From positions 1 to 64,000 of the forward strand of contig JAKCFJ010000001.1 of NCBI GenBank assembly GCA_025041175.1: a DNA stretch of 64,000 nt. The letters run 5' to 3'. This document shows, piece by piece, positions 3,976-52,935 of this stretch. The notes beneath the pieces are model-generated. The model was not told the origin of the DNA. It saw nothing but the letters and a program-made list of their open reading frames with translations, and made no database searches. The position numbers and the translations under genes were made by a program. This stretch comes from Halobacteriales archaeon YIM A00010 (lineage in GTDB: Archaea > Halobacteriota > Halobacteria > Halobacteriales > Haloarculaceae). The stretch's first letter is position 1, and every line of letters starts with the position of its first letter.

Positions 3976-4207
3976 TATACTGTCGGACAGAGGTGGTTGA
4001 TACTGTCGGACAGAGGTGGTTGATACTGTCGGTCATACTCACGTGGCTCGACAGTGGCGTTTTCGGGAGCATGGAGCAATTACCTGACTGAACAGGCCAT
4101 CGAGTGTTCAACGATCCATGACCGACAGTATGAATATCGGCTGCTGGTGACCCGCCAGACAGCAGCTGGCTCGTCCGTCGCACTCCGTCCGCAGGTCCGA
4201 CAGTATA
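3976..4207. repeat. Cluster of CTGTCGGACAG palindromes with nested inverted repeats
   Basis: Three direct copies with an exact 23-bp period start at 3977, 4000 and 4023 (unit ATACTGTCGGACAGAGGTGG plus TTG; the third copy diverges to ATACTGTCGGTCAT). The third copy pairs exactly with ATGACCGACAGTAT at 4119-4132, bounding a 110-bp segment with 14-bp inverted ends. The outermost TATACTGTCGGAC at 3976-3988 pairs exactly with GTCCGACAGTATA at 4195-4207, bounding 232 bp. Each CTGTCGGACAG is also a palindrome by itself (CTGTC-G-GACAG). No gene is seen inside. It could be a MITE-like element or a cluster of protein binding sites. Confidence 0.8.
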
Positions 4208-6159: not shown

Positions 6160-6306
6160 ATGATGGGAAACGCATCAGAGGCATGTAACGGTGTCGCATC
6201 GTATCAAGAAAACGAGCAGCGCACGCACTGCCCGGTGTGTGGCCGGCCGGTTCGCACGCGTCTGGAACACCGGACGGGCTGTCCGTTGGGGCGGTGGTGG
6301 CGATGA
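6160..6306 (+). CDS. Zinc-finger microprotein (48 aa)
   Basis: A 48-aa protein with a Cys/His cluster CPVCGRPVRTRLEHRTGC (residues 24-41) that looks like one zinc finger (C-x2-C ... H-x3-C). The remainder is short and polar. The start is the first of two adjacent ATGs at 6160, matching the position of the ATG in the second copy of the locus. Its TGA overlaps the next ATG (cgATGA), so it is translationally coupled to the 185-aa partner. It has a structured leader upstream. The function is unknown; small haloarchaeal zinc-finger proteins often act as regulators, but that is inference. Confidence 0.75.
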   Translation: MMGNASEACNGVASYQENEQRTHCPVCGRPVRTRLEHRTGCPLGRWWR

Positions 6307-6860
6307 CGTTGCCGTTGTTCCAGTTCCGGAATCAGCGGGGGGAGGTGGTGAACCTCTCGGCTGCCACGGATCGGGCGGAGATCGTGACGGCCGAACTGTA
6401 CCACAGTATCGACGTGAGTGAGGGGTTGTGGTGCAGACCGTGCCAATCGACGGGCTGCGCGCACGCCACCCAGATCGAGCAGATACTCGCGACCGCCGGG
6501 CTTGGTAGAACCCGAACGGGCGGGTACGACGAACTGCCGGGGATCGCACGATTCACGCGCTACTGCGCTACCGGTGAGACGATCATCGAATGCTGGTTCG
6601 ATAACGGCGCGTGTGTCCGATTCCACGAACAGCGCGATGGCGACGTGATCCAGTCCGTGTTCACGCCCGAGGACTCGCGCGAGCCGGCCGAGATCACGGA
6701 CAAGCCGGATGCCGAGAGCGCGCCCGCGTGTCTGGTCAAAACACTCGTGGAGTACTGCAAGTATCGCCAGCGCGGCGATCTCGCTGGCTTGCGCCAGCGT
6801 TATCCCAACCTAGCCCGCGTCGTCGGTGCGACCGCCGCTGCATCCACCACCGACGATTGA
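6303..6860 (+). CDS. Conserved hypothetical protein, partner of the zinc-finger microprotein
   Basis: A 185-aa acidic soluble protein starting MTLPLFQFRNQRGEVVNLS. A Cys/His cluster CRPCQSTGCAH at about residues 44-54 could bind a metal. I do not recognise the family. The start is set by the ATGA overlap with the microprotein; a longer open frame exists upstream in the same frame but it covers the microprotein coding sequence. A close relative lies at 23282-23881, interrupted by a hairpin insertion. Conservation of both genes, the overlap and the leader in two places argues that the pair works as a unit. Confidence 0.8.
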   Translation: MTLPLFQFRNQRGEVVNLSAATDRAEIVTAELYHSIDVSEGLWCRPCQSTGCAHATQIEQILATAGLGRTRTGGYDELPGIARFTRYCATGETIIECWFDNGACVRFHEQRDGDVIQSVFTPEDSREPAEITDKPDAESAPACLVKTLVEYCKYRQRGDLAGLRQRYPNLARVVGATAAASTTDD

Positions 6861-7392: not shown

Positions 7393-7493
7393 ATACTGTC
7401 GGACAGAGCCGCGTACAGATCGGGACGGAATCTCTATCTTCTGTCTGGCGATTTACCAGCATCCGATATGCAATCATCTCTGTCCGACAGTAT
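7393..7493. repeat. 101-bp segment with perfect 16-bp inverted ends (CTGTCGGACAG type)
   Basis: ATACTGTCGGACAGAG at 7393-7408 is exactly the reverse complement of CTCTGTCCGACAGTAT at 7478-7493. The ends carry the same palindrome as the cluster at 3976-4207, while the interior is unrelated. No target duplication is obvious. It lies about 60 bp upstream of the asparagine-synthetase-like gene and could be a small non-autonomous element or a pair of operators. Confidence 0.75.
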
Positions 7494-7556
7494 CAGCGTT
7501 CGTCGGTGTGAGCATTCCCCTCGGAACGATCTCTCGAGCGCGAGGGGTGAGTGAGC

Positions 7557-23138: not shown

Positions 23139-23279
23139 ATGACTGGGAATGAATCAGAGACATGTAACGGTGTCGCATCGTATCAGAATGATAACTAGAG
23201 AACGCGTTGCCCGGTATGTGGCCGGCCGGTTCGGTCGCGCCTCGACCACCGGATGGGCTGCCCGTTGGGACGGTGGTAG
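23139..23279 (+). pseudogene. Decayed zinc-finger microprotein, copy B
   Basis: This aligns along its length with the microprotein at 6160. It starts MTGNESETCNGVASYQNDN and then has an in-frame TAG at 23196-23198. Past the stop the same frame reads RTRCPVCGRPVRSRLDHRMG and CPLGRW, so the zinc-finger part is still conserved. The end (TAG at 23277-23279) is 2 nt before the next ATG rather than overlapping it. It is broken unless the stop is read through. Confidence 0.75.
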
Positions 23280-23281
23280 CG

Positions 23282-23881
23282 ATGAGTTTGCCAGTGTTTC
23301 AGTTCCGGGATCGATTGGGGGAGGCGGTGAATCTCTCGACCGTTGAGGATCGAGAGACGATCTCGAAGGCCGAGCTGTACCACATCGTCGATGTCGGTGA
23401 GGGAGTCTGGTGTCGCCGAGCGAAGCTCGGCTGCTAACCGAAACTCTCCGAGTTTCGGTGATGCCGACCGTGCCAGAGTACAGGCTGCGCGCACGCCACT
23501 CAGATCGAGCAGATCTTGGCGACTGCCGGGCTTGGTCGGTCTCGAACGGAGTACGACGAGTTGCCGGGGATTGCCCGCACCACCCGGTACGACGATACGG
23601 GTGAGAGGGTCGTCGCCGGCTGGTTCGAGAACGGTGGGCGCGTTCGGTGCCACGAGCAGCGTGATGGCACCGTCGTTCAGTCGGTGTTCACTCCAGAGGA
23701 CGAGCGAACCCCGGCCGAAGAGACCGAGAATCACGACGCAGAGAGCGCTTCGGCACGTCTGGTCGAAACGATGGTGGAATACTGTCAGCATAGACAGCTC
23801 GGTGACTTTGATGGCTTACGGCAGCGCTATCCCAAACTGGCGCGCGTCGTGGGCGAGCCCACCGCTGTATACGGGGACTGA
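23282..23881 (+). pseudogene. Decayed partner gene, copy B, interrupted by a hairpin insertion
   Basis: This is a relative of the 185-aa protein at 6303. The first 50 codons (MSLPVFQFRDRLGEAVNLST...) align. Then 51 bases at 23413-23463 are inserted within the WC(R)PC motif, bringing in-frame TAA (23435) and TGA stops. After it the same frame continues CRPCQSTGCAHATQIEQIL to the end at 23881. The 51 bases are a multiple of three, so the frame is kept but closed. Confidence 0.75.
23413..23463 (+). repeat. 51-bp hairpin insertion, TCTCCGA type
   Basis: It contains two hairpins: CCGAGC-GAA-GCTCGG (23416-23430) and CCGAAACTC-TCC-GAGTTTCGG (23438-23458), the second flanked by CTGCTAA and TGATG. 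The same arrangement, with a different but complementary stem, occurs at 48442-48474. Its limits are given by comparison with the intact gene at 6303. Confidence 0.7.
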
Positions 23882-25240: not shown

Positions 25241-26431
25241 CTAGGCATCGTCCGTCCGAGGCTCCCCCGAGGCGCGTTCGACCGCCTCCTCGCTGTTGTG
25301 GAACGCACGGGCGGCCTCCGGGAGGGCGTTGTCCTCGTGGAGGGCTTCGAGCCGCCGGTACACCCACTGTGCGGCTTCGAGTGGCTCCACCTCATCGGGG
25401 AGTTGCTCAGCACTGCGGGGGTTCTCCTCGTAGACACACCCCGGACGGGACGTGATGGAGTCGTAGAACGTCGTCGGTGGATCGGAAAACGTCGTTCGAG
25501 CGTCGATACGCGCGTCTGTGAACTCGGTTTCGTACAGGAGCGCGCTGGTGAACGTCGCTCCCCTGAGGTCGGCGCGTGCGAACACTGCCTCCTGAAGATT
25601 CGCGTGGCGAAAGCTCGCTCCAACGGCGTTCGCACCGGAAAAATCCTCCTGTTCGAGATGGGCATCGGAGAAATCGGCCCGTTCGAGATCGGTGGCGGGA
25701 AACTCGGTTGCGATGAGGTAGGCATCTGGAAACGCGGCGTTCCGGAGGTCAGCGTCGGGAAATTCGGTCATGAGAAGGATGGCGCGGTGAAAGGATGCGT
25801 TTCGGAGATCGGCGTCGGGGAACGTGGTGCATACGACATCGGCGCGGTGAAAGGATGCGTTTCGGAGATCGGCGTCGAGGAACGTCATGTGTTCGACACC
25901 GGCTCGGAGAAAGGAGGTGTTTCGGAGGTCAGCATTGGGAAACTCGGCCGTCCAGAGGATAGTATCGGAAAACGTCGCTCCCCTGAGATCGGCGTGGGGA
26001 AAGGATGCGTTCCGGAGGTCGGCGCCGGAAAACGTTGCGTTCCGGAGGGTCGCACCGGAAAACGTTGCGTTTCGGAGGTCGGCATTGGGAAACCCAGCGT
26101 TCTGGAGGTTCACACTGTCAAAGGTGGCCCCGTAGAGCCCACACCCGGCGAACGACAACCGATTCTCTGGGTCGACACTCCGAAGGATCGCCCCATCGAG
26201 TCGTTCGGGAATATCCATTCGACGTGCGAGGAGTTCGTTGGCGGGTTTTTCGTCCACATTCGCGTGCCAAATACATCGTCCCATCTCTTCGTGTTCCTGC
26301 CAGACAGGCCGCCAACAACAGATTGCACTGTTTCTTACGTTCCACTTCGAATCAGGTTCTACCCCGACATCTTCGGGTCTCAATTCAAATCCACAGCGAC
26401 CCTCGGGTGTTTCCGTCTCGGTCCCTGCCAT
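25241..26431 (-). CDS. Pentapeptide-repeat protein with Cys-rich N-terminus
   Basis: A 396-aa protein. Residues 1-90 are a Cys-containing domain (CGFELRPEDV, CCWRPVWQEHEEMGRCIWH). About 95-320 is a run of A(D/N)LxN/F pentapeptides such as FPNADLRNATFSGADLRN, which fold as a right-handed quadrilateral beta-helix. A helical tail (about 345-396) follows. Known pentapeptide proteins include DNA mimics and protein-binding scaffolds; no target can be named. The repeats are very similar in DNA, so this locus can grow or shrink by recombination. The start at 26431 is the first ATG before the Cys-rich domain. Confidence 0.9.
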   Translation of the reverse strand: MAGTETETPEGRCGFELRPEDVGVEPDSKWNVRNSAICCWRPVWQEHEEMGRCIWHANVDEKPANELLARRMDIPERLDGAILRSVDPENRLSFAGCGLYGATFDSVNLQNAGFPNADLRNATFSGATLRNATFSGADLRNASFPHADLRGATFSDTILWTAEFPNADLRNTSFLRAGVEHMTFLDADLRNASFHRADVVCTTFPDADLRNASFHRAILLMTEFPDADLRNAAFPDAYLIATEFPATDLERADFSDAHLEQEDFSGANAVGASFRHANLQEAVFARADLRGATFTSALLYETEFTDARIDARTTFSDPPTTFYDSITSRPGCVYEENPRSAEQLPDEVEPLEAAQWVYRRLEALHEDNALPEAARAFHNSEEAVERASGEPRTDDA

Positions 26432-26582
26432 AGGAATCCCAAGTGTTAGGTTACCAAAAAGATGTAGAAGGAAGCTGTTTGTACCCTCCGCCAGCAGCCC
26501 GAGCATCCCTTGGGAGTGGGAACCGGCGGGGTCGGCAGATGCCAGCACCACGGTTTTGGCGCTGACAGCCCTCTGTCAACCC

Positions 26583-28250: not shown

Positions 28251-28323
28251 GGGCGTGTGGCCTAGCGGACAAGGCGAGAGGTTCCTAACCTCTCGATCGC
28301 GGGTTCGAATCCCGTCACGCCCG
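28251..28323 (+). tRNA. tRNA-Arg (CCT)
   Basis: A 73-nt cloverleaf: acceptor GGGCGTG / CACGCCC, D stem GCCT / AGGC, anticodon stem AGAGG / CCTCT with loop TTCCTAA (anticodon CCT, reads AGG), T stem GCGGG / CCCGT with loop TTCGAAT, discriminator G. The 3' CCA is not encoded. Confidence 0.95.
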
Positions 28324-28331
28324 TGGAGCGA
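28302..28331 (+). repeat. 30-bp direct repeat at the tRNA-Arg 3' end, copy 1 (att-like)
   Basis: GGTTCGAATCCCGTCACGCC plus CGTGGAGCGA covers the T arm, the 3' acceptor strand and 8 bases beyond the tRNA. An identical copy lies 86 bp downstream. Tyrosine integrases use such tRNA 3' ends as attachment sites. Confidence 0.7.
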
Positions 28332-28387: not shown

Positions 28388-28417
28388 GGTTCGAATCCCG
28401 TCACGCCCGTGGAGCGA
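28388..28417 (+). repeat. 30-bp direct repeat of the tRNA-Arg 3' end, copy 2 (att-like)
   Basis: An exact second copy of the 30 bases at 28302-28331 that is not part of a complete tRNA. The 56 bases between the two copies encode nothing visible. This is the pattern left when an integrated element has been lost or reduced. Confidence 0.7.
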
Positions 28418-48281: not shown

Positions 48282-48480
48282 CTACGTGAGATCGAACTCC
48301 ATCCCGTCGGCGATCGTTTGGACCACGGCGTCACACAGCGGACAGTCCGGAGCCATCACGACCTCCTCGGTCCCCGTTTCGACGCCGATGCACAGCGACG
48401 ATTCACAGCCACACGCCGGACAAACGTTGGCCTGTGGCCGACTGCTAACCAGATGTCTCCGACATCTGGTGATGTCGCCG
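48282..48480 (-). pseudogene. Remnant of a zinc-ribbon gene, with a hairpin element
   Basis: In the frame ending at the TAG at 48282, the sequence reads NVCPACGCESSLCIGVETG and VMAPDCPLCDAVVQTIADG, closely matching residues 31-79 of the protein at 44328. Upstream of the ribbon the similarity stops at a hairpin element (48442-48474) and no start codon is available in frame before a stop. The N-terminal half seems to have been replaced or deleted. Confidence 0.65.
48442..48474 (+). repeat. 33-bp hairpin element, TCTCCGA type
   Basis: CTGCTAA, then CCAGATGTC-TCC-GACATCTGG, then TGATG. Flanks, loop and stem length equal those of the second hairpin of the insertion at 23413-23463, while seven of the nine stem pairs are free to differ and mostly do so with pairing kept. 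Confidence 0.7.
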
Positions 48481-52769: not shown

Positions 52770-52889
52770 CAGAGACGCGCTCGACTGACCAGCCGTTTCG
52801 CGCCGGGACGAGCGAACGACACCGAGACAGACACTCATTCCCGAGGGAACTAACAACACGGCCACATCATTCGATTCCAACAGCTATTT

Positions 52890-52935
52890 AACTGACTGGA
52901 CAGTCAGTTATGATACGAGCTGACTGGACAGTCAG
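52890..52935 (+). promoter_or_regulatory. Twin palindromic operators (TetR type)
   Basis: AACTGACTG-GA-CAGTCAGTT (52890-52909) and CTGACTG-GA-CAGTCAG (52920-52935) share the same core, centred 28 bp apart. A TATTTAA element overlaps the left edge at about 52884-52891. They lie 20-65 bases before the truncated TetR-like gene and probably control it and the MATE gene. Confidence 0.8.

Follow-up and report, generated by a model that had tools for sequence, protein, structure and literature searches.

Two copies of a short hairpin, whose stems differ in sequence yet pair between the same flanks, stand in the window, the stretch of 64,000 nucleotides of Halobacteriales archaeon YIM A00010 (contig JAKCFJ010000001.1, positions 1 to 64,000) that was analysed as a whole. 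Do they belong to a mobile family, and is it the structure rather than the stem sequence that is recognised?

A 51-base unit of two hairpins

Both copies are present exactly as described in the original prediction. The pattern CTGCTAACC-N7-TCC-N7-GGTGATG matches at 23431-23463 and 48442-48474, has no other match in the window even when up to three mismatches are allowed, and has an expected count of 0 (none in 100 dinucleotide shuffles of the window). This hairpin, first taken for the whole unit, is half of a larger, 51-base, two-hairpin mobile repeat: a second covarying hairpin, which had been missed, lies directly 5' of TGCTAA in both window copies, where its stem sequences likewise differ, yet pair. 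The order of the unit is TC-hairpin 1-TGCTAA-hairpin 2-TGATG, 51 bp in both copies. The coordinates originally given for copy 1, 23413-23463, coincide to the base with a 51-bp insertion relative to the paralogous segment 6140-6519. The features are as follows.

23201..23881, + strand: host gene of copy 1 (...GEGVWC[17 codons]RPCQSTGCAH...; 5' limit approximate)
23411..23412, + strand: TG target dinucleotide, left of copy 1 (paralog TGG TG/C AGA CCG without the insert; here and below the slash marks the insertion point)
23413..23463, + strand: copy 1, complete, TC-hairpin 1-TGCTAA-hairpin 2-TGATG, 51 bp (exact insertion against the paralog)
23415..23431, + strand: hairpin 1 of copy 1, GCCGAGC-GAA-GCTCGGC (sequence, DNA fold)
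23432..23437, + strand: fixed linker TGCTAA of copy 1, whose TAA puts an in-frame stop into the host gene
23438..23458, + strand: hairpin 2 of copy 1, CCGAAACTC-TCC-GAGTTTCGG (sequence, DNA fold)
23459..23463, + strand: fixed right end TGATG of copy 1 (empty-site comparison)
6432..6433, + strand: unfilled TG site of the paralogous gene 6237-6860 (aligned flanks 77% and 83% identical)
48426..48474, + strand: copy 2, hairpin 1 GTTGGCC-TGT-GGCCGAC, TGCTAA, hairpin 2 CCAGATGTC-TCC-GACATCTGG, TGATG (model match 48422-48474, 45 bits)
48426-48442, + strand: hairpin 1 of copy 2, GTTGGCC-TGT-GGCCGAC
48282..48474, - strand: small zinc-ribbon-like frame reading through copy 2 on the opposite strand (translation ..APGD[ITRCRRHLVSSRPQ]ANVCPACGCESS..; start codon and family unconfirmed)

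DNA folding gave z values of -5.9 for copy 1 and -5.7 for copy 2. With R1, a covariance model derived from 24 units, copy 1 scored 58.6 bits at 23411-23463. The target TG recurs as the final two bases of the element. Hairpin 1 of copy 2 has one G.T pair, and the left border of this copy is AAAC, not TGTC; we read its left end as decayed or as overlapping a gene.

At the protein level the host of copy 1 has GEGVWC[17 codons]RPCQ where the paralog has SEGLWCRPCQ. Although copy 1 is 51 bp long, it adds two in-frame stops that split the host gene. Pfam gave no match for the paralog of this gene or for the 3' part of the host. Sibling genes in the genus carry the element at apparently the same codon, at four loci of the same genome (L035, L039, L042, L045) and two of a relative (L012 and L031).

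The window also holds other repeated structures. A different two-hairpin array, TAACTGACT-ggac-AGTCAGTTA followed by CTGACT-ggac-AGTCAG, lies at 52889-52935, and ATACTGTCGGACAGAG inverted repeats, 81-92% complementary, recur at 3977-4022 and 7393-7495. The 3' part of a tRNA-Arg(CCT) gene region (28302-28331) is repeated exactly 86 bp downstream (28388-28417), as at an integration site. On the minus strand, 25241-26551 is a frame of ten-residue repeats (ADLRNATFSG..) in 30-bp periodic DNA, which looks pentapeptide-repeat-like by eye. A search of the window against Rfam returned tRNA only and nothing on the element.

Insertion sites, copy number and host genes

Empty and filled sites between species and between paralogs show, as judged from aligned sequences, that the element is mobile; with its many copies and fixed linkers, this bears out the mobile family originally proposed. 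Empty sites were found for copy 1 of the window, for an acyl-CoA ligase, for a GH3 enzyme and for the 3' end of TnpB transposons. The comparison of filled with empty sites defines the insert as TC...TGATG placed after TG, so that the single TG of the empty site ends up on both sides. On the left the border reads TGTC in 88 of 104 units, a feature that the search pattern did not require. In the ligase, which is AMP-binding, GVGPGD[19 aa]TMLVYLPNC stands against GVAPGDTVLVYLPNC and similar sequences in same-genus genomes; the 19 extra residues are missing from the same-genus orthologs, the nearest of which have 81-83% identity. The GH3 enzyme has GVLDGD[63 aa array]SEGELDTP against GVLDGDSEGALDTP, and its 63 extra residues, which come from an array, are missing in one same-genus ortholog.

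The element is 45-59 bp long, mostly 51-57 bp, and the constant stem length first assumed gives way to a range of 7-10 bp in hairpin 1 and 6-10 bp in hairpin 2 (104 units). Hairpin 1 lies directly 5' of hairpin 2 in 119 of 125 distinct hairpin 2 copies; of the other six, four have a decayed hairpin 1, one runs into a contig end and one matches by chance. Since the two hairpins travel together, no autonomous copy is known; among the 125 copies none has a gene between the hairpins, and no autonomous copy was seen. Sites of the same genome near Y1 genes (L226, L227), together with L160, were considered as autonomous copies and rejected, being other double-hairpin families or matches of 29-44 bits.

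The pattern scan called for by the original prediction gave five matches in the organism's own genome (5.97 Mb, 7 contigs) in a form close to that proposed, and 37 matches once freed of the TCC loop, against 0 for the reversed control. With R1, 143 matches on both strands merged into 94 units at 72 places, 16 of which hold at least two units. Tandem arrays reach 8 or 9 hairpins, in which the linkers TGCTA and GATGTC alternate, with TGCC or CTGTC among others mixed in, and new units abut at TG/TC. Two copies with identical spacing occur in Halocatena marina (L070) and in a same-genus genome (G040), which suggests Halocatena as the genus of the window's organism. The same small set of stems (CCGAGC, CCAGAAATC, CCAGAACGC) is found in both hairpin 1 and hairpin 2 of dispersed units and of three arrays (L228, L230, L241), as if hairpins had swapped position.

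In the family, 23 of 146 genomes matched the pattern; six of these were set aside by eye, their matches not being palindromic, which leaves 17 genomes with palindromic copies. In a sample of the phylum, 75 of 392 genomes matched R1 at E <= 1e-4 under strict filters, with at most 14 candidates scored per genome; 71 of the 75 belong to the order of the window, and the four in other families match weakly (best E 5.8e-8). A scan for exact matches in 84,980 prokaryote genomes returned 68 stretches, all titled haloarchaeal or 'Euryarchaeota archaeon'. Viral contigs gave four matches, none a perfect palindrome, which we read as chance, and the phage records searched gave no match.

The element often slips into genes without breaking the frame. 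The length of the insert is divisible by 3 bp in 70 of 102 units (25/40 at TnpB ends, 23/29 in the own genome, 22/33 elsewhere), and in-frame hosts include the AMP-binding ligase, the GH3 enzyme, TnpB and a GH2 enzyme of Halocatena salina, whose gene (WP_247995250.1) keeps its frame across two units. Genes contain the element in either orientation, and the encoded peptide varies with the stems. In enzymes, inserts that keep the frame supply new protein segments.

TnpB transposons share one insertion site. Their right ends read TTGAGGGTG/GGGCTT, or a variant of it, when empty and TTGAGGGTG-TC..hp1..TGCTAA..hp2..TGATG-GGGCTT when filled, the point of insertion being GAGGGTG/GGGCTT. Among 29 distinct right ends collected by tip sequence alone, 23 are empty by regular expression, one carries the element and five are of other kinds, including two with different double hairpins and one empty by eye. 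When 392 genomes of the order were searched by flanks only, 57 had a match, in 72 rows; by our count the element is present in 34 of these rows (26 genomes), another double hairpin in one and unrelated sequence in the rest. TnpB itself is also a host at internal positions (L037, L046). Use of this single site may affect the guide RNA of the transposons; Rfam gave no match in six TnpB loci. Other families of double-hairpin inserts, with linkers of their own, lie in or near TnpB genes (L136 and L138 in the TnpB 3' region; L130, L137, L149, L127, G340, L232-L235), some of them at sites close by on the same right end. In the own genome, L226:1560-2400 holds a TnpA/TnpB pair whose coding frames have several further hairpin inserts.

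Paired stems and the mode of movement

Nearly all changes in the stems replace one Watson-Crick pair by another. In alignment A1 (17 distinct inserts, with flanks and a length of 57 nt as the only criteria of choice), 96.9% of pair cells are standard against a shuffled mean of 92.2%, and 18 cells changed on both sides (0/500 shuffles in either case). Alignment A2 comprises 24 element-selected units, of 42 distinct 59-mers, in which a change affects both sides in 66 cells and a single side in 4; near-perfect stems were a criterion of their selection, and the paired percentage in A2 is therefore not independent evidence. G.T pairs number 19 in 1858 stem pairs. What is conserved is the outer stem, CCAGAA with TTCTGG, and the loop-closing C-G pair (197 of 208 hairpins), while the pairs in between are variable; the opening pair of most stems is G-C or C-G.

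The loop is less uniform than the fixed TCC of the original prediction: in the 208 hairpins of 104 units TCC occurs 22 times (7 in hairpin 1, 15 in hairpin 2). Triloops make up 195 of the 208, and 124 of the 195 read GNA or, as its complement, TNC. In DNA, triloops of the form C(GNA)G are known for unusual stability. Among triloop units the two hairpins differ in strand: hairpin 1 favours GNA on the TGTC strand (43 against 26 TNC) and hairpin 2 favours TNC (48 against 18 GNA). Between copies that share site and stem, 19 of 63 changed loops are exact inversions (0.30, against 0.10 when permuted, 0/2000), the pairs compared not being independent. At the level of clusters the excess lacks significance (an inverted pair in 8 clusters, against 7.4 permuted; 474 of 1000 permutations at least as high), and we regard the point as one of moderate strength.

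Template switching is documented to homogenise arms and invert spacers in yeast genes, with footprints also in rRNA hairpins, and for yeast an interchange of GAA and TTC within perfect arms is shown (PMC8604942, PMC8794818). Because intermediates with G.T are few and loops are inverted, copying by template switch suggests itself as part of the cause. The structural recognition rule originally suggested is not the sole possible cause of the covarying stems. A need to fold and template switching are probably both at work, in shares that we do not apportion. Perfect hairpins may persist by selection or by template-switch copying, and the family offers a natural test, with stems, loops and flanks comparable at identical insertion sites.

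Precise insertion at TG, some 70 places in one genome, tandem stacking, in-frame insertion into genes and a common site in TnpB transposons are directly supported. On these we build a reading that we consider rather likely: the element is a non-autonomous mobile repeat of haloarchaea with two triloop hairpins, moved in trans as a folded single strand, its stems kept by folding and template switching. Movement in trans as folded single-stranded DNA is our best guess. An enzyme encoded by the host or by an insertion sequence would recognise linkers, stem feet and the shape of the hairpins, and stems would stay paired since the DNA must fold to move. Template switching at replication would copy one arm onto the other and flip loops, giving covariation with no mismatched intermediates. 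For the enzyme we would favour an HUH (Y1-like) single-strand transposase that cuts after TG, although none of the results identifies it. The linkage to a TnpA-like enzyme that had been predicted did not emerge, a Y1 transposase being present in 10 of the 17 family genomes with palindromic copies against 95 of 146 overall, and Y1_Tnp absent from 7 of the 17. Old copies could outlive their enzyme. More tentatively, a dedicated haloarchaeal system might mobilise DNA hairpins as modules, each a folded single strand, at TG, assemble them in tandem arrays and load preferentially TnpB transposons and, in frame, host genes.

Other accounts start from the same features. Site-specific recombination on folded hairpins, as at integron attC sites, would have a recombinase excise and insert units at TG, with arrays as the storage form. 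The TG common to both borders, the structure kept while the sequence drifts, and the arrays of up to 9 hairpins with new units abutting at TG/TC all fit; the units, however, have no cargo, and R boxes, which we take to define attC, are not evident in them. In the analyses described here neither a gene for a recombinase nor a fixed attachment site came to light. We consider this account unlikely. That the element is instead the right end, or an omega-RNA part, of IS605/IS1341 (TnpB) transposons, the dispersed copies being relics with PATE-like fused ends, would explain why numerous copies outside the genus overlap the 3' ends of TnpB frames, why the IS605 CDS of Halobacterium sp. DL1 covers one copy, and why 11 of the 72 own-genome places lie within 1 kb of a TnpB domain against 1.2 expected. 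The other 61 places, however, lie further away, no gene separates the hairpins in the 125 copies, the dispersed copies inspected have no IS tip and the six TnpB loci have no Rfam match. As most right ends are without the element (23 of 29 by regular expression) and the join is exact, we reject omega-RNA or ancestral right-end membership, and this improbable reading is largely refuted.

A structured RNA, regulatory or guide, whose fold is conserved and which spread by ordinary duplication, would account for the strong covariation and the fixed single-stranded linkers. It sits badly with the near absence of G-U intermediates (4 one-sided against 66 two-sided cells; 19 G.T in 1858 pairs), with both orientations in genes, with copies in coding frames and tandem arrays, and with the window element having no Rfam match; we hold it to be quite improbable. 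Similarly improbable is that there is no dedicated mobility at all, and that hairpins arise and multiply by replication slippage, template switching at palindromes and recombination between copies. The homogenisation of arms and inversion of spacers described in the cited portions of PMC8604942 and PMC8794818, and the loop inversions seen in the element, speak for it, but the same 51-57 bp unit with fixed linkers and clean TG joins at unrelated loci would be left unexplained.

Relation to known repeat families

As a mobile repeat, the element can be set beside several known families; in the open-access literature we recognised no description of it, although one may have been published elsewhere. 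It resembles PATEs in part. It differs from MITEs, which have terminal inverted repeats in common with a known transposon and often duplicate their target: its own ends, TC and TGATG, are not inverted repeats, and its borders share only TG. PATEs (palindrome-associated transposable elements) are small, without terminal inverted repeats and with palindromes near their ends, and a 52 bp terminal-only form, HqIRS46, exists (PMC3119063, in part). Their ends are, however, related to IS605-type ends (same source), whereas among 125 copies no IS605 element has these hairpins as its ends, and IS tips differ.

SMR-A of Haloquadratum walsbyi is, in the cited part of PMC3119063, a transposase-free small haloarchaeal repeat that inserts into near-terminal palindromes of IS605-type elements and whose mobilisation is called enigmatic. 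The present element likewise inserts in TnpB right ends, at GAGGGTG/GGGCTT. SMR-A, however, is about 110 bp long and has prominent terminal inverted repeats, its copies commonly being >95% identical (PMC3119063, in part), whereas here units are mostly 51-57 bp, with no terminal inverted repeats, heterogeneous stems, different borders and several gene insertions; the two are set apart by the description of SMR-A, not by its sequence.

Among REPs, those of the CGTC type have a CGTC tag, often TGTC, at one hairpin end, intragenic copies and, as far as the cited part of the source goes, no dedicated transposase known (PMC3733652, Di Nocera 2013); here TGTC stands 5' of hairpin 1 in 88 of 104 units. 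Their stems, however, are 8-9 bp long and nearly always open with A-T, their loops have 4-5 nt and they are mostly head-to-head dimers (PMC3733652, in part), in contrast to two tandem hairpins in fixed order with feet CCAGA or CCGAG and triloops. GTAG REPs, of the REP/RAYT system, resemble the element in a short hairpin beside an unpaired tetranucleotide and in the single-strand mobilisation in trans proposed for them (PMC3733652, in part), but here there is no GTAG foot, TGTC being found in 88/104, and no Y1 transposase association was found.

Like the element, Rickettsia palindromic elements (RPEs) are small palindromic repeats inserted into numerous unrelated genes, where they frequently keep the frame and are translated (PMC10969869, in part). 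An RPE, however, has about 150 bp and a conserved peptide in the cited part of that source, whereas the present unit has 45-59 bp, two separate triloop hairpins and variable stems, and occurs in haloarchaea only. The element thus resembles RPE, REP and SMR-A, yet lacks a defining feature of each, and we file it as a member of no single one. With its precise borders and many empty sites, it would be an archaeal counterpart of RPE and REP, found so far only in haloarchaea.
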